A stretch of 48,091 nt of DNA, taken from contig JAIQFZ010000020.1 of the NCBI GenBank assembly GCA_020073015.1, positions 1 to 48,091 on the forward strand, in the 5' to 3' direction. The translations under genes and the position numbers were made by a program. The DNA is from Terriglobia bacterium (GTDB lineage: Bacteria; Acidobacteriota; Terriglobia; Terriglobales; Acidobacteriaceae). Position 1 is the first letter of the stretch, and every line of letters begins with the position of its first letter. The notes beneath the pieces were generated by a model that was not told the origin of the DNA, did not search any database, and worked only from the letters and a program-made list of their open reading frames with translations. Of the stretch, positions 1,205 through 8,176 are shown one piece after another.

Positions 1205-1606
1205 ATGTTTCAGCGCTTTGCTGCCAGTACCGCGGTCGCTTCCATGGTAATCGCCGGGGCGGTTCTTATCGTATGCTTTGTGCCGGGTCTGACCTTCGGA
1301 AGAATCTATCCCCTTCCGATCTTTTGGTGTGTCGCTCCGTTCGCATGGGGAATTTGGGCATTGCTGATACCCTCGGCGTGGATGCCGAGTCGCTTGCCTC
1401 TTTGGGGAGCAATCCTGGGACTCATCGCAGGGTCGTTGGCGGCTTTCGTTTTGAACCTGCCTTCCCGGCTTTTCGGAGCGGCCGTCTCGCTCCCTTTGCG
1501 TGGAGTGGCGGTTCTCGTCATGGTGTTGTTCTACTACTTGCTCTGGATGCTGGTGCGTGCCGCTTGCCGGTCTCTGGCGTCCGCCGCCCCTGAGAACAGG
1601 CGGTGA
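1205..1606 (+). CDS. Small integral membrane protein, unknown function
   Basis: 133 aa. The ATG at 1205 is chosen because a strong GGAGGAGG ribosome site ends 5 nt upstream; the GTG at 1199 overlaps that site. The protein is almost entirely hydrophobic, with about four membrane segments (around residues 10-30, 40-60, 68-88 and 97-118) and a short basic C-terminus. No family is recognised. Its stop codon overlaps the GTG start of the next gene by 4 nt (GTGA), so it is probably translationally coupled to the radical SAM protein and the membrane spermidine-synthase-like protein that follow, and is the first gene of that operon. Confidence 0.75.
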   Translation: MFQRFAASTAVASMVIAGAVLIVCFVPGLTFGRIYPLPIFWCVAPFAWGIWALLIPSAWMPSRLPLWGAILGLIAGSLAAFVLNLPSRLFGAAVSLPLRGVAVLVMVLFYYLLWMLVRAACRSLASAAPENRR

Positions 1607-2592
1607 GCGGTCCCGGAGCCATGAACCGAGCCGAGTTCCAACCCGCTTATCTCGAACTGTGGCAGTCCGGAGAATTGTCGCGCCGCGTCGAGCTTGGCTT
1701 GGAGAAGCTGGCGGACTGCGTCCTGTGCCCGCGCAACTGCCACGTGAACCGAATCGAAGACAAGACCAAAACGTGCAGGACCGGGCGCTACGCCGTCGTC
1801 AGCAGCTCTTTCGCCCACTTCGGTGAGGAGCGCTGCCTCCGTGGCACTCATGGCTCCGGAACCATCTTCTTCAGCTGGTGCAACCTGCGTTGCGTCTTCT
1901 GCCAGAACTACGAAATCAGTTGGCTGGGCGTAGGCCGGACCACCACACCTGAGGAATTGGCTGCGATGATGTTGGCATTACAGGCGCAGGGCTGTCACAA
2001 CATTAACCTGGTCACCCCGGAGCACGTCGTTCCACAGATTCTTGAAGCGCTGTTGCTGGCGGTGGAGCGTGGGCTGCGTCTCCCTCTCGTTTACAACACG
2101 AGCGCGTACGACTCGCTCGATTCCCTCGCGCTCATGGACGGTGTGGTGGATATCTACATGCCCGATTTCAAGTTCTGGGATCCGGAAACAGCGCGTCGTT
2201 ATGCCAAGGCTCCGGATTACCCCGAAGCTGCGCGCCGTGCGATCCAGGAAATGCATCGCCAGGTTGGACCGCTGGTCACGGATGAGCATGGTGTCGCGTT
2301 GCGCGGTGTCCTTCTGCGGCATCTGGTGATGCCCGATGGTGCAGCCGGAACCCCGGAAATCATGCAGTGGGTCGCCCACGAGTTGAGTCCTGAAACCTAC
2401 GTGAACTTGATGGCGCAATACCGCACCGCCGCTCATGTCACAGCCAAGCGGTATCCCGAAATCAACCGCTGTATTACCACGAGCGAATTCCAGCAGGCCC
2501 TGGATGCCTTTCGCGCCGCGGGCCTCCATCGACTTGATCACGACTCCGGTGCGATGCCGGCAGATAGTGCCTTTGCTTTTCGACTGCCGTGA
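1603..2592 (+). CDS. PflA/PflX-like radical SAM protein
   Basis: 329 aa, cytoplasmic. The radical SAM [4Fe-4S] motif is CNLRCVFC (C93, C97, C100). A Cys-rich N-terminal segment (C39, C42, C46, C58) precedes it, as in uncharacterised pyruvate formate-lyase-activating-enzyme-like proteins of the PflX type. There is no adjacent glycyl-radical enzyme, so the substrate is unknown and a PFL-activase role should not be assumed. The GTG at 1603 overlaps the previous stop; an ATG at 1621 is an alternative that would trim six residues. The C-terminus overlaps the next gene by 4 nt, again as GTGA. Clustering with a second radical SAM enzyme of the AmmeMemoRadiSam set 4 kb downstream suggests a shared pathway, which is inference. 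Confidence 0.88.
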   Translation: MSGPGAMNRAEFQPAYLELWQSGELSRRVELGLEKLADCVLCPRNCHVNRIEDKTKTCRTGRYAVVSSSFAHFGEERCLRGTHGSGTIFFSWCNLRCVFCQNYEISWLGVGRTTTPEELAAMMLALQAQGCHNINLVTPEHVVPQILEALLLAVERGLRLPLVYNTSAYDSLDSLALMDGVVDIYMPDFKFWDPETARRYAKAPDYPEAARRAIQEMHRQVGPLVTDEHGVALRGVLLRHLVMPDGAAGTPEIMQWVAHELSPETYVNLMAQYRTAAHVTAKRYPEINRCITTSEFQQALDAFRAAGLHRLDHDSGAMPADSAFAFRLP

Positions 2593-4955
2593 ATTCTAAT
2601 GGTCACGCTGTGAGCGCGGGACAGCCACTCTCGGCAGCAATCCTCACATCCCTCAGGCTTCGCGCGATCCTGGTTCTCATTGGTTTCACGGCCACCGTCG
2701 CCCAGATTGTTCTGATGCGCGAGCTGATGGTGGTCTTCTATGGCAACGAGATCTCGCTTGGGGTGATGCTGGCCAGTTGGCTTCTCTGGACGGCGATCGG
2801 CAGCAGCCTGCTCGGCCGGTTTGGTGCTCGAACGCTGAAGCCGGCCAGGCTCATGGCAGCTTTACAGACGCTGCTTGCGCTCCTCTTCCCCGCGACCATC
2901 TTAGCGGTGCGCGCCAGCCGGAGCGTGGTTCACGCGCTTCCAGGAGAACTCCTCGGCCCCTGGCCGATCTTCCTTACTTGCCTGCTTACGCTCAGCTGCT
3001 TCTGCGCCGTATCAGGCTGGGTGTTCGTCGCCGGAAGCCGGTTCCATGTCCATGAGTCCGGCTCATCGACTTCGGTCGCGGTCAATTCTGTCTATCTGCT
3101 CGAGGCGGCGGGATCGGCCTTGGGGGGAATTCTCGCCAGCCTGATCTTGCTCCGCTCTCTGAACTCCCTGCAGATTGCTTTCCTGGTGAGCGCACTGAAC
3201 TTCATGGCCGCGGCGACTCTCAGTCTGCGAAGACGAACGCATCGGATCGTCGCGGTTTCGGCCTTAGTGGTCGCGTGGGTCCTTGTCGGTCTGCCGGAAG
3301 GCGGCCGCTTGGAAACCGCCTCTCTGGCTCGCCTGTGGCCTGGCTTTCGCCTGCTGGACACGCGCAACTCGGTGTACGGCAATCTGGCGGTCCTGGAAGC
3401 AGGCGGAGTTCGCAGCCTCTTTGAAAACGGGCTGCTGATGTTCAATGCGCCGGATCCAGCCACCGCCGAGGAGAGCGTGCACTTTGCCCTGCTCGAGCAC
3501 CCCGTTCCCCGCAGTCTTCTTCTCATCGGAGGCGGTGCGGGCGGAAGCCTGCTGCAGGCTTTGCAGCATCCCAGTCTTGAACGGGTGGATTACGTTGAGC
3601 TCGATCCCACCGTGCTCGAGCTTGCGCAGCAATATTTCCCGGAACAATGGGCCGCGGCGCGCGCGGACGCGCGCGTCCATGTTCACCATGCGGACGGACG
3701 GTTATTCCTGAAAACCACCGACCAGGCGTTTGATGTAATCATCGTCAATCTACCCGCTCCGCAGACGGCGCAATTGAACCGCTTCTATACCTCGGATTTC
3801 TTTCGCGAAGCGGCGGAGAAGCTTGCGGACGGAGGAGTGTTCTCGTTTCAGCTGCACGCTGCGGAAGAGTACCTGAGTCCCGACCTGAGCGCCTTCCTGC
3901 GCTGCGTGGTCAAATCGCTGCAGGAAGCATTTCCCGTAGTACGCACGATCCCCGGCGACACTGTACATTTCTTTGCCGCCAAGCGGGAGGGCGTCCTGGC
4001 CGCCGATCCCAACGAGTTGCTGTCTCGCCTGCGATCCCGGCACCTGCGAACGAGCTACGTCCGCGAATACTACATCCCGTTTCGCATGATGCCCGACCGC
4101 GTCGCCGATCTTGCGCAGAAAATCCAGCCTCGTCCCGACACGCCCGTCAACCGCGACCTGGCTCCGATCGCCTACTACTTCGACGTTGCTCTGTGGAGCA
4201 CGCAGTTCAATCGCGAGTATCAATCCATTTTCGAGTCCATCGCGCAAATGCGATTTGGAAGGCTGGTGGCCCTGGCGGCTGCTCTGCTTCTTGGTCTTGC
4301 CGCGATCTTCCGCTGCTGGCCGCGGACCGCCGCCCGCGTGCGCGCGAGTGCGGGGTTCTGCATCGCTCTCGCAGGCCTGACCATGATCAGCCTGGAAGTG
4401 CTGCTCCTGTTGGGCTTTCAAGCCATCTACGGCTACGTCTACCACGAACTCGCGATCCTGATTGCGCTGTTCATGACGGGCATGGCCCTCGGAAGCTGGT
4501 GGCGTTTGCGCTCGACCGCCCGCTCTGCACGCGCGCTGACTCCTCGTGCAGGTCTGATCCGGCTGGCCGGGCTCCAGGTTCTGGCTGCTGTGGCTCCAGT
4601 TCTGCTGTATCTGTTCTTCAGTTCTCTCGCTGGCATCAGAAGCTCGGGCATGCTGATGTTCGTGAGTCAGATTGTCTTCCCAGCAATGGCTTTGCTGGCG
4701 GGTGTGCTCGGTGGATATGAGTTCGCTCTTGCCACCGAAGTTTTTTTTGCGGACGCACAAGTGCCGCAGGCAGGCATAGGAATGCTGTACGGGATCGATC
4801 TGCTGGGGGCGTGCCTGGGCACGCTGCTGTTGAGCGCGTTCCTGCTCCCGCTCTTCGGTTTTCTCAAGGCAGCTTTGTTTATTGCGGTGGTGAACCTGGT
4901 ACCCGCTCTCCTGGCCGTCGGGGTGGGTCGGTCCAAACTGGAGCCTCAGGTATGA
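2589..4955 (+). CDS. Membrane-embedded spermidine-synthase-like protein
   Basis: 788 aa. The N-terminal third (about residues 25-235) has six to seven membrane helices, the middle (about 250-480) is a Rossmann spermidine synthase-type domain, and the last part (about 555-785) again has several helices. The nucleotide-binding features are present: GGGAGG at 314-319, VELDP around E337 and ADGR at 368-371. The position that is the catalytic Asp of spermidine synthases (DxxDP) reads N387-LPAP, so both acidic residues are lost and aminopropyl transfer is doubtful. The GTG start overlaps the previous stop, indicating coupling. The 3' end overlaps the convergent MEMO-AMMECR1 gene by 77 bp. An alternative role is transport or sensing of a SAM-like ligand. 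Confidence 0.85.
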   Translation: MNSNGHAVSAGQPLSAAILTSLRLRAILVLIGFTATVAQIVLMRELMVVFYGNEISLGVMLASWLLWTAIGSSLLGRFGARTLKPARLMAALQTLLALLFPATILAVRASRSVVHALPGELLGPWPIFLTCLLTLSCFCAVSGWVFVAGSRFHVHESGSSTSVAVNSVYLLEAAGSALGGILASLILLRSLNSLQIAFLVSALNFMAAATLSLRRRTHRIVAVSALVVAWVLVGLPEGGRLETASLARLWPGFRLLDTRNSVYGNLAVLEAGGVRSLFENGLLMFNAPDPATAEESVHFALLEHPVPRSLLLIGGGAGGSLLQALQHPSLERVDYVELDPTVLELAQQYFPEQWAAARADARVHVHHADGRLFLKTTDQAFDVIIVNLPAPQTAQLNRFYTSDFFREAAEKLADGGVFSFQLHAAEEYLSPDLSAFLRCVVKSLQEAFPVVRTIPGDTVHFFAAKREGVLAADPNELLSRLRSRHLRTSYVREYYIPFRMMPDRVADLAQKIQPRPDTPVNRDLAPIAYYFDVALWSTQFNREYQSIFESIAQMRFGRLVALAAALLLGLAAIFRCWPRTAARVRASAGFCIALAGLTMISLEVLLLLGFQAIYGYVYHELAILIALFMTGMALGSWWRLRSTARSARALTPRAGLIRLAGLQVLAAVAPVLLYLFFSSLAGIRSSGMLMFVSQIVFPAMALLAGVLGGYEFALATEVFFADAQVPQAGIGMLYGIDLLGACLGTLLLSAFLLPLFGFLKAALFIAVVNLVPALLAVGVGRSKLEPQV

Positions 4956-6471
4956 AAACGCGCGAGGTTTCGGATTCTCCGAATACCACAGCCGTAAACA
5001 TGAAAAGGTCCGCGTCCTTGTCGCGCCATGCTTTGGCAGGCAACCCCGCCTTCATCGCGGTCTCGTCCAAAAACGTGTTTCGATCCCAATGTTGCTCGGG
5101 CGCGACCTGAGGAAGCAACAACCCGCGGTAGCGGCCCTTCGTGATCATGAGCCCGTGCTCTCCGACTTTGATGTGATTCAGGTCCATCACTCGCCGCATC
5201 GGCGACAGGACGGAGATCTCGTACTTCAGGTGGGGTAATTCACTGGCCGTCACCGGCCGGAAACGCGTGTCCCGCAACGCGGCAAACCGTGCCACATCGC
5301 GGACCGTCAGCGCCAGGGGCTGGATAGCTGCTGTGTACCCGATACAACCTCGAAGCTCGCCATTCTCCTTGAGTGTGACGAAAGCTCCGCGGTCTTGCGT
5401 CAAGCTCGGAGGCAGGTTCGCGGGAAGTTCATAGAGTTTATTGTCCTTCACCGCAGACTCGACGGATTTCCTGGCAATCTCCAAGAGTTGCCGTTTCTCG
5501 GCCGAGGTCAAAGAAAATTTCGGCGTTTCTGTGCCTCGACCCTCGTCCTGAAACAACGCCACCGCGCCGTAACCGACGACGCGGCTACGGTCACCCGTCA
5601 CGTCGCCCGAGTTCGCATACTTGATCACCTGGGCGCGCGTCGCCCCCAGCCGCTCGGCGGCAATCATGGCGGCCACGATCGGGCCTCCCCCGCACGCTTC
5701 CCACGTCCGGTTTTGGAAGTTGTCCGAGAGTGTGAGGTAATCCCATTCCCCAATCGCGTTTAGGGTTTTTCCGTCCAGAGCGACGGCCTGCTCGTAAGGG
5801 TGATAATGCGAAAGATCGGAACTGGCCACGATCAGCGTGTCCGTTCCTCGAACCAATTCTGCGAGCGCGACCCCCAGGGCGCGGCTCGCTTCATAGCTTT
5901 GCTCGCCCATGATGATGGGCACCAGTTCGAAATCCGAGAGTGTCCGCTGCAGGAACGGCAGTTGTACTTCGAGAGCGTGTTCGGCCCCATCCTTAGAAGG
6001 AAGATGGCCCCGGCTGGATAGTTTGATGGCGGGGTTCGAGCGTGCCAGCTTCCGGGCGAACTCCTTGTCCACGGCGATCGTCCCGAGAGGAGTGGCATAG
6101 GCGTCACCCTCGTAGACCGAAGCAAACGGAAACGCGTCATAGTGGGAGGGCGCGATCACGACGACCCGATGCGTCGGCCGCCCTCTCAATAAAACATAGC
6201 TATGCGCGGCTACCGCCCCGGAGAACTGATAGCCCGCATGGGGTGCGACCAAGGCAATGATCTGCCCTTTTTGCGCGGGCACACTGGCATGGGCAAGGAA
6301 CCCGTCCACGGTCGCTGCCAGTTCCTTGGGGTCGCCAGGATAAAAAGATCCCGCCACAGCTGCTTGCCGGATCTGCTCCCCCGATCCCGCTAGCGGGCTC
6401 TTTGCAATTCCTGAACATGCCACTAATAAGGGAATTGCGATCAGCAGCGCGACTCTGATTTTGGCACTCAT
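4879..6471 (-). CDS. AmmeMemoRadiSam proteins B and A fused (MEMO-AMMECR1), predicted lipoprotein
   Basis: 530 aa. The start at 6471 follows GGAG with 5-nt spacing. The N-terminus MSAKIRVALLIAIPLLVAC is a lipoprotein signal with lipobox LVAC (C19), so the protein is predicted to be exported and lipid-anchored. Residues about 35-310 are a MEMO domain, with metal-site candidates H78 (APHAGY), H110 (PSHY), D219/H222 (SSDLSHY) and C260 (ACGGG). Residues about 320-500 are an AMMECR1 domain with the hallmark RGCIGY at 374-379. A proline-rich tail of about 30 residues runs into the overlap with the convergent gene. MEMO, AMMECR1 and a radical SAM enzyme form a known co-occurring set of uncertain function; here two are fused and the third lies 17 nt upstream on the same strand, so they are likely one operon. 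Confidence 0.93.
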   Translation of the reverse strand: MSAKIRVALLIAIPLLVACSGIAKSPLAGSGEQIRQAAVAGSFYPGDPKELAATVDGFLAHASVPAQKGQIIALVAPHAGYQFSGAVAAHSYVLLRGRPTHRVVVIAPSHYDAFPFASVYEGDAYATPLGTIAVDKEFARKLARSNPAIKLSSRGHLPSKDGAEHALEVQLPFLQRTLSDFELVPIIMGEQSYEASRALGVALAELVRGTDTLIVASSDLSHYHPYEQAVALDGKTLNAIGEWDYLTLSDNFQNRTWEACGGGPIVAAMIAAERLGATRAQVIKYANSGDVTGDRSRVVGYGAVALFQDEGRGTETPKFSLTSAEKRQLLEIARKSVESAVKDNKLYELPANLPPSLTQDRGAFVTLKENGELRGCIGYTAAIQPLALTVRDVARFAALRDTRFRPVTASELPHLKYEISVLSPMRRVMDLNHIKVGEHGLMITKGRYRGLLLPQVAPEQHWDRNTFLDETAMKAGLPAKAWRDKDADLFMFTAVVFGESETSRVFIPEAPVWTDPPRRPGERVPGSPPQ

Positions 6472-6488
6472 AGGAACTCCGATCCGCC

Positions 6489-7757
6489 TCAACTCCAAAC
6501 GCCCGGAATCACGTGTTGGCAATATTCGCACTTTCCTTTGCGAACATGGTTCTGCGTGATCGTGAACCCAGCGCGCTCGATGAGCAGACGGCGGCACTTC
6601 GGGCAGCGTGTGTTCTCGGCCGGATGCCCGGGCACATTCCCGATGTAGGCGTACTGCAAACCTTCGGCGTCAGCAATCGCCTTGGCGCGTTCCAGGGTTT
6701 CGACCGGCGTGGGAGGCAGGTTTTTCAGCAGGTACAAAGGTTGAAAGCGCGTGAAGTGGATCGGAACGTCAGTTCCGAGATTGGCTTTGATCCACCGCGC
6801 GAGCTCGCGAAATTCGGTATCGCGGTCATTCAGCGTCGGAACGACCAGGTGCACGATCTCCATCCACTTGGCTTCCTTCCGGGTTGTGACCAGCGTATCC
6901 AGCACGGGCTGAAGCTCGCCATTCACCACCTCGCGGTAGTACTTCGCGGAGAATGCCTTCAGATCAATCTTGATGGCATCCACGTGCTTGCAGAGGCGCT
7001 TCAGCGGCTCTTGCTGAATAAAGCCGTTCGACACCACCACGGCCTTCGTTCCTTGCTCCCGGGCCGCATCCGCGGCGTCGGTGACAAACTCGTTGAAGAC
7101 GGTGGGTTCGCTGTAGGTGAAAGCCACGGCCGGACAATGGTTCTGTTTGGCCAACGCCGCGACGTCTGCCGGCGGCATATACCGGGCTGGCAGATCCTCC
7201 GGCATGGCCTGCGAGATTTCCCAGTTCTGGCAGAACTTGCAGTTCACGTTGCATCCGGCGGTGGCCAGGGAGAACGCCAGAATGCCGGGATGGAAATGGA
7301 AGAAGGGCTTCTTCTCGATCGGGTCGATATGAGCCGCACACACCCGCGAGTGCACCAGCGAATAGTACGTCCCTCCCCGGTTTTCGCGGACCCGACAATG
7401 CCCGCGCTGCCGGTCTCCTACCACACAGCCGCGCGGACACATCTTGCAGCGGACGTTCTTGCCTGGCAGCTTTTCGTAGAATCTGGCCTCCACGCGAAAA
7501 TGGGCATCATCGTCTGCCAAGGAGGGAACTCCAAGAGCAACCGCCGGGCTGCCGTGAAGGCAGGCTGCGGCGCAAGCCGCCAGGCACGGGAGCGTTGTTA
7601 CCTTCAAGAACGTTCTGCGATCCGCGGGTGCGGCAGCGATCGCCCGGAGGGGGACAGAAAATCCCAACTCCGAAACGCGATCCATCGACTCACGCTCTTG
7701 GTGAAGAACCTGCAGCAAGGAGTGGCACAGGGCGTGGGTGGCATTCGCGGTGTCCAT
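6489..7757 (-). CDS. AmmeMemoRadiSam system radical SAM enzyme with Tat-type leader
   Basis: 422 aa. The start at 7757 has GGAGGTG 5 nt upstream. An N-terminal extension of about 85 residues carries DRRTFLK (R47, R48), a good twin-arginine motif, followed by a hydrophobic Ala/Cys-rich stretch ending near AVALG (residues 72-76). This implies Tat export of a folded iron-sulfur enzyme. The catalytic domain has CNVNCKFC (C169, C173, C176), a preceding Cys cluster CKMCPRGC...C (C104, C107, C111, C121) and a C-terminal four-Cys element (C385, C388, C410, C413) likely to bind metal. It lies 17 nt upstream of the MEMO-AMMECR1 lipoprotein gene. The reaction is not known for the family. Confidence 0.92.
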   Translation of the reverse strand: MDTANATHALCHSLLQVLHQERESMDRVSELGFSVPLRAIAAAPADRRTFLKVTTLPCLAACAAACLHGSPAVALGVPSLADDDAHFRVEARFYEKLPGKNVRCKMCPRGCVVGDRQRGHCRVRENRGGTYYSLVHSRVCAAHIDPIEKKPFFHFHPGILAFSLATAGCNVNCKFCQNWEISQAMPEDLPARYMPPADVAALAKQNHCPAVAFTYSEPTVFNEFVTDAADAAREQGTKAVVVSNGFIQQEPLKRLCKHVDAIKIDLKAFSAKYYREVVNGELQPVLDTLVTTRKEAKWMEIVHLVVPTLNDRDTEFRELARWIKANLGTDVPIHFTRFQPLYLLKNLPPTPVETLERAKAIADAEGLQYAYIGNVPGHPAENTRCPKCRRLLIERAGFTITQNHVRKGKCEYCQHVIPGVWS

Positions 7758-8176
7758 GAGTGCACCTCCGCGCGAAGAACCTACCTGGCACTGTTCACAT
7801 GCTCGGAATCGTCATCGATTGTCCAGTCCCGCCAGAAACGACTGAAGCCCACATTCGGAGTGTGCGAGTCAGCCGTGCCTATGGCACTCGCGGGCGTTCT
7901 CAACACCCCCTCCCGCCAGTGAACTGGCGGGCTATTGTCAGTGGTCCCTCCGGGACCCACTGCCTTGCTCCGGCTGGGATGTCAACAGAGCCAACCTACT
8001 TCTATTTTTCTACCACTCGGCGGCAGGATTTGCAGTGACGGTGGACACGTGCCGGGGTCATCATCCCCGCCTTGCGCCCGGGGCCGGTGTAAACTACTTG
8101 CCGTCTTCCCTGACTCGAACGAAATACCCAAACCAGTGTGGCACAACTCCGTCTAAGAGAAATATTGGAGGTTGCA
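7758..8176. other. Divergent intergenic region with two hairpins
   Basis: 419 nt between the divergent radical SAM gene and the M16 peptidase gene. Short frames here have no credible ribosome site and no recognisable product. The middle holds the hairpin pair listed at 7912-7962. The last 80 nt should carry the peptidase promoter, but I could not assign convincing -35 and -10 boxes. Confidence 0.6.
7912..7962. repeat. Tandem hairpins (dispersed repeat type)
   Basis: Two adjacent palindromes. The first has perfect 9-bp arms CCCGCCAGT / ACTGGCGGG with a 2-nt loop (7912-7931). The second (7939-7962) has arms CAGTGGTCCC and GGGACCCACTG with a single-base bulge. There is no T-tract on either strand, so these look like a dispersed repeat element rather than a terminator. 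Confidence 0.65.

Follow-up and report, generated by a model that had tools for sequence, protein, structure and literature searches.

The closest described counterpart of the genes treated here is the AmmeMemoRadiSam system, in which MEMO, AMMECR1 and a radical S-adenosylmethionine (SAM) enzyme are encoded by adjacent genes. Since radical SAM enzymes use up SAM and a strong reductant, they are regarded as cytosolic. MEMO and AMMECR1 are conserved into humans. The literature passages found that name AmmeMemoRadiSam do so incidentally, and the abstract of another article calls the primary molecular function of MEMO1 unknown (PMC11081632). We analysed a stretch of 48,091 nucleotides (the window) of contig JAIQFZ010000020.1 from a Terriglobia bacterium (Acidobacteriota; assembly GCA_020073015.1), which encodes on its minus strand a radical SAM enzyme of the AmmeMemoRadiSam family (422 residues; 6489..7757) and, starting 17 bases past it, a MEMO-AMMECR1 fusion (530 residues; 4879..6471). 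A preliminary description of this DNA had proposed that both proteins are exported, the enzyme by a twin-arginine translocation (Tat) leader and the fusion as a lipoprotein.

By family tests the pair is a member of the AmmeMemoRadiSam families. The enzyme scored over the TIGR04337 cut-off (360 bits vs 220) and the fusion over both of its own, with TIGR04336 at 277 bits (cut-off 26) for the MEMO domain (5557..6369) and TIGR04335 at 183 bits (cut-off 99) for the AMMECR1 domain (residues 328-497; 4981..5490); the Pfam assignments (Memo, AMMECR1) agree with these families. Similar to the described system, all three families are present in adjacent genes and the cluster and SAM-site motifs are kept. 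However, in the window pair MEMO and AMMECR1 are fused, a Tat leader and a signal peptide are predicted, and the exported form is linked to a membrane protein, SPDS, and often to a DUF362 protein, neither of which was seen near cytosolic-clade loci. The nearest characterised-type radical SAM models are those of glycyl-radical-enzyme activases (PflA, YjjW, NrdG2), but the window enzyme (53-66 bits) lies far under their cut-offs (131-250 bits) and differs from them in its extra N- and C-terminal Cys motifs and its predicted export. We infer that the pair represents an exported variant of the AmmeMemoRadiSam system, and an extracytoplasmic system with SAM-handling and electron-supply partners is probable on the in silico evidence for location given below.

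Predicted export signals of the radical SAM enzyme and its partner

The ATG of the radical SAM gene at 7757 is preceded by GGAGGT-GCACTC, placing a Shine-Dalgarno sequence (GGAGGT; 7764..7769, minus strand) six bases upstream, and a GAGGT-then-ATG start is shared by all seven nearest kin (L034-L040). Because this start recurs in the kin, the 422-residue reading was adopted, in which the twin arginines are residues 47 and 48 (codons 7614-7619); the protein includes DRRTFLKVTTLPCLAAC. The leader region (7560..7757, minus strand) comprises a long n-region, the twin arginines, a short hydrophobic stretch and a lipobox-like LAAC site. Both arginines are invariant in an alignment whose rows had been selected as Tat rows.

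Relatives were drawn from three sources: 80 from named genomes, found with a query that included the leader, so that this set is biased towards leaders; a leader-blind set of 110 TIGR04337 matches, part of all matches in a phylum sample of 197 genomes (TIGR04337 being present in 132), of which 80 were picked roughly by score before any leader was inspected; and the source genome's own three TIGR04337 genes. Together they gave 193 loci, of which three (L019, L021, L176) lacked the core pattern, leaving 190 rows (113 loci and 110 rows in the leader-blind part). A Tat motif, RRxF ahead of a hydrophobic stretch, was read by script in 125 of the 136 rows of the exported clade, which are related and so not independent, compared to 0/54 other family rows; the clade was delimited post hoc by a leader-free core score >345, with L025 moved to the cytosolic side (neighbour, residue-conservation and partner-leader counts below keep L025 in the Tat group of 126 rows). 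In the leader-blind sample the figures were 55/56 and 0/54, and the sole miss (L117) carries MKRRDFLKLSCGLCLSL; it is among four leaders clear by eye that the script overlooked, together with L059, L067 and L082. The leader of L088 is truncated by a contig end, and the frame of L081 has no readable leader. The same test was positive in 49 of 986 unrelated open reading frames (ORFs) of at least 300 residues and in 3.1% of shuffled leaders; the motif noted earlier is thus confirmed as exceeding chance, and the proposed Tat leader is supported.

The preliminary description had named leaderless homologues with start sites further downstream as an outcome that would speak against export. We found instead that leaders are conserved across rows titled Acidobacteria, Calditrichota, Latescibacterota, KSB1, Zixibacteria and Aminicenantes and are absent from the cytosolic clades; a start-site artefact was rejected, since the start is conserved in kin and the leader is clade-specific. 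Among 80 genomes reached via one Zixibacteria genome, 68 had TIGR04337 matches; the script could read 16 of the 30 loci returned and found the Tat motif in every one. The source genome (5.5 Mb, 99% complete) encodes TatC (233 bits) and three TIGR04337 genes, two with Tat leaders (that of the window and that of contig C100) and one, at the end of contig C174, without.

Two features of the leaders were noted in passing. Of 78 leaders of sufficient length, 12 have an [IVN]DxLP motif ahead of the twin arginines (0.5 expected by shuffling), including those of L039, L040, L041, L069, L084 and L138; the rows are titled Acidobacteria, Calditrichaceae and Latescibacterota, and the motif may be a binding site for a chaperone or partner. 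A lipobox-like site (LAAC, LAGC or LTAC) was found by pattern inside 23 of 125 Tat leaders (7560-7610, minus strand, in the window; L035-L045 and others), so the radical SAM enzyme may itself be a Tat-exported lipoprotein.

A second line of evidence comes from one sister group (support 100), in which all 11 rows carry the c-type haem motif CxxCH. It precedes the radical SAM core by 22-26 residues, and each row also has a Tat motif farther towards the N terminus and another His downstream; a twelfth member was found in genome G017. Haem c is attached only outside the cytoplasm, so these predicted haem-c carriers argue for export independently of the leader.

The residues expected of a working enzyme are kept. 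In the window protein (minus strand), a CxxCxxxC...C motif near the N terminus (C104, C107, C111, C121; 7395..7448), probably for an auxiliary cluster, and the CxxxCxxC radical SAM motif (C169, C173, C176; 7230..7253; PF04055) fall in columns fully conserved in all groups, and a C-terminal CxxC...CxxC (C385, C388, C410, C413; 6519..6605) is 98-100% conserved in the exported groups. The same range covers the Cys of all three motifs together with TYxEP, DxK and ND, and C145, C149, C152 and TYxEP (398-residue numbering) reach 100%. Conservation of cluster and SAM-site residues in the exported groups equals or exceeds that of the cytosolic groups.

Signals were found on the partner as well, in line with the earlier claim that both proteins carry them. 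Under a rule that requires a 12-residue hydrophobic stretch, the neighbouring MEMO has a signal-like segment at 79 of 85 Tat-group loci, 9 of 11 haem-group loci and none of 10 cytosolic loci; the two haem-group misses, which the core finder had cut, resemble signal peptides by eye. The fusion of the window begins with MSAKIRVALLIAIPLLVAC, a predicted signal peptide (6415..6471, minus strand) that ends in a LVAC lipobox with Cys as residue 19. Among the partners, just 12 of 85 in the Tat group and 3 of 11 in the haem group have a lipobox, and in two very close relatives (L035 and L036) Trp replaces its Cys. We therefore rejected the lipobox as a general feature: of the proposed exported lipoprotein, the signal peptide is supported, and lipoprotein status does not extend to the partners at large. 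The source genome has a second, stand-alone MEMO without a leader on contig C39, where the adjoining gene resembles KsgA/RsmA by eye. The metal-site residues of human MEMO1 are given as H49, H81 and C244 in the same article (PMC11081632). Of 96 exported partners, 95, 96 and 92 retain their putative counterparts by motif reading, H78, H110 and C260, respectively.

SPDS and other neighbours of the probably exported enzyme

SPDS (788 residues; 2589..4955, plus strand) is encoded convergently to the pair and overlaps the fusion gene by 77 bases. SPDS tracks the exported enzyme. It lies nearby at 10 of 11 haem-group, 78 of 126 Tat-group and none of 53 cytosolic-clade loci, and, where the locus extends 3.2 kb or more upstream and 3.9 kb or more downstream, at 7/7, 53/69 and 0/20, respectively. 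In the phylum sample, from which the loci behind the SPDS profile were partly taken, 57 of 197 genomes have SPDS. Of the 54 genomes from which an exported enzyme was fetched, 52 have it, compared to 2 of 32 with only cytosolic rows fetched (G021, G178) and none of 65 without TIGR04337. For five genomes with SPDS no exported row had been fetched; two of these, G017 and G178, turned out to encode one, G020 and G021 have radical SAM pieces on the SPDS contig with the leader unread, and in G187 SPDS is close to a contig end.

In an AlphaFold2 model (predicted local distance difference test 90.3, predicted template-modelling score 0.89), SPDS consists of seven N-terminal membrane helices, a spermidine-synthase fold at residues 254-552 (3348..4244, plus strand) and six or seven C-terminal helices. 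The best Foldseek match of the domain is spermidine synthase 1uir (E 1.2e-13), and the window protein scored 66.5 bits with the fused MFS-spermidine synthase model NF037959 (cut-off 40). The Lys/Arg loop bias in 68 of 68 homologues predicts an N terminus inside and, after seven helices, a domain outside.

Further frequent neighbours are a DUF362 protein, to which fold searches assign the LarA N-domain fold, and a NapH/NapG-like polyferredoxin. Searched against solved structures, the DUF362 protein matched none by sequence at E up to 1 and none by profile at E up to 10; compared to LarA, a nickel-pincer racemase, it differs by sequence, has the N domain only and is often Tat-leadered. Its His205 and Lys215 are conserved, at a spacing that may resemble that of the nickel-pincer cofactor residues of LarA. 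At the second exported locus of the source genome (L001:1755-3521), DUF362 genes flank the enzyme on both sides, and the downstream one includes LNRREALIKLLRLGG, also Tat-like. The polyferredoxin resembles ferredoxin-type NapG (93.5 bits) and NapH (69.7 bits), but is one ORF fused with DUF6599 and falls below the NapG and NapH cut-offs. An AI-2E family transporter gene was seen near it in nine loci (L101, L102, L112, L116, L117, L126, L130, L135, L136). In L101, L105, L109, L115, L117 and L137, a Fer4 protein and a heterodisulfide-reductase-like CCG-domain protein are encoded downstream of SPDS and are possible further electron carriers. The window also holds a second radical SAM gene of an unrelated family (1603-2592, plus strand; PF04055), without a leader, that overlaps the SPDS start by 4 bases and matches NrdG2 weakly (24.5 bits, below cut-off). 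It was not seen beside SPDS in kin loci, with no ORF >60 bits listed among the 193 loci, and was excluded as a system member.

Alternative explanations and a tentative pathway

The extracytoplasmic reading draws on the leaders of the clade and of the partners, the CxxCH group, the kept residues, TatC, the linkage and predicted topology of SPDS, and also the leaderless radical SAM and leaderless MEMO genes within the same genome. Several observations weigh against it. The n-region of the window protein (46 residues) is long for a Tat signal, Pfam TAT_signal matches 17 of 44 exported members, the window protein not among them (nor is it one of the 25 Pfam families in the list for 44 cytosolic members, in which the smallest count is 3), and five rows of the exported clade are leaderless (L075, L083, L096, L097, L099). 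These points would favour non-functional leaders on cytoplasmic proteins, caused by a chance motif or a wrong start, which we regard as very improbable in view of the conserved start and leader, the low background and shuffle rates, the partner leaders and the haem-c motif. FastTree unites the five leaderless rows in one clade, whereas two changes are required in a mixture-model tree, which has four of them among its 80 chosen rows; in that tree haem, Tat and leaderless rows fall together (Shimodaira-Hasegawa-like approximate likelihood ratio test 91), outside of which lies the long-branch row L125. The MEMO partner of L083 retains a signal-like segment, and those of L097 and L099 have an 11-residue hydrophobic stretch, below the 12-residue rule. 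Also counting against the reading, loop 708-737 of the window SPDS violates the charge rule; G087 and G122 lack SPDS at E<=1e-60 despite encoding the exported enzyme; and SPDS is present in 12 but missing from 3 of the 15 genomes whose loci bear titles other than Acidobacteria. The polyferredoxin is near just 29 of 126 Tat-group loci, and its match in the source genome is in two pieces with a stop. The DUF362 protein has no leader in many Aminicenantes and Zixibacteria loci, and both the haem-group neighbourhoods and the window locus lack it. Finally, SAM outside the cytoplasm is not established, and location, haem attachment, SAM binding and activity are predictions only.

The location of the protein and that of its chemistry are separate questions. 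Tat exports folded iron-sulfur proteins in other, known systems, and SAM and strong reductants are cytoplasmic, which would fit radical chemistry that precedes export, or a leader that merely tethers the enzyme, leaving the exported form as an iron-sulfur electron carrier or scaffold. We consider this unlikely, because the SAM-site motifs vary no more than in the cytosolic groups and because SPDS, whose SAM-type domain is predicted to face outwards, is an added partner of the exported clade and is missing where leaders are lost: the genomes of the five leaderless rows had no SPDS match >36 bits, compared to matches >600 bits in 10/10 other searched genomes (which include that of L081, with its unreadable leader; the completeness of the five is not established). 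An alternative explanation of SPDS, compatible with export, is that it is an ordinary aminopropyltransferase or another pathway enzyme and no supplier of SAM. Spermidine synthases are its best fold matches, the ribose acid and the adenine-site Asp are retained (68/68 and 67/68) and the second acidic position is Asp or Glu in 60 of 68. However, position 317, which in true synthases is the acid of GGG[D/E] with a role in binding decarboxylated SAM (dcSAM), has V, A, L, I or F in 60 of 68 homologues, 13 of 68 keep the first catalytic Asp (position 387), and a new PxP...QxNR motif is near-invariant (P389, P391, Q395, N397 and R398 in 64-68 of 68). An ordinary spermidine synthase is disfavoured by the frequent loss of the dcSAM-amine acid and the first catalytic Asp, and we infer that the domain binds a SAM-type nucleoside without classical aminopropyl transfer. 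The enzyme explanation as a whole is a real possibility that falls well short of an even chance, and even then a SAM-type ligand would be required on that side of the membrane.

Under the extracytoplasmic reading, the radical SAM enzyme very likely folds and gains its iron-sulfur clusters in the cytoplasm and is then exported by Tat as a folded protein, while the MEMO-AMMECR1 fusion would leave by its own signal peptide. SPDS would display its SAM-type nucleoside-binding domain on the outer face and might, as its most likely role, supply, present or handle SAM or an adenosyl product for the exported enzyme. Electrons could arrive via the NapH/NapG-like polyferredoxin (in many loci and the source genome) or via the built-in haem c (in the sister group). 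The exported enzyme could then modify an extracytoplasmic substrate for further processing by MEMO, with its extradiol-dioxygenase-type metal site, and AMMECR1; in most Tat-group loci the LarA-fold DUF362 protein might act in the same pathway. The complete proposal, namely radical SAM chemistry outside the cytoplasm, with SAM fed by SPDS as exporter or presenter and electrons from polyferredoxin or haem c, that makes or modifies an extracytoplasmic cofactor or metabolite together with MEMO, AMMECR1 and the LarA-fold partner, is put forward tentatively, at slightly less than even chances.

Implications for the family

We found no report of an exported AmmeMemoRadiSam variant within the literature searched, a scope that left subscription journals mostly outside. 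In that scope no title dealt with an exported radical SAM enzyme, and there was nothing combining Memo1, AMMECR1 and radical SAM, or AMMECR1, Memo1 and bacteria, nothing on DUF362 with radical SAM and nothing on a membrane spermidine synthase. A conserved exported clade with a haem-c-motif sister group would leave two readings: SAM and low-potential electrons are available in the periplasm of several phyla, or the role of the family is an unforeseen one. For the question of MEMO function, concrete and testable parts would come from an exported version that is operon-linked and whose SAM-fold membrane partner follows export.

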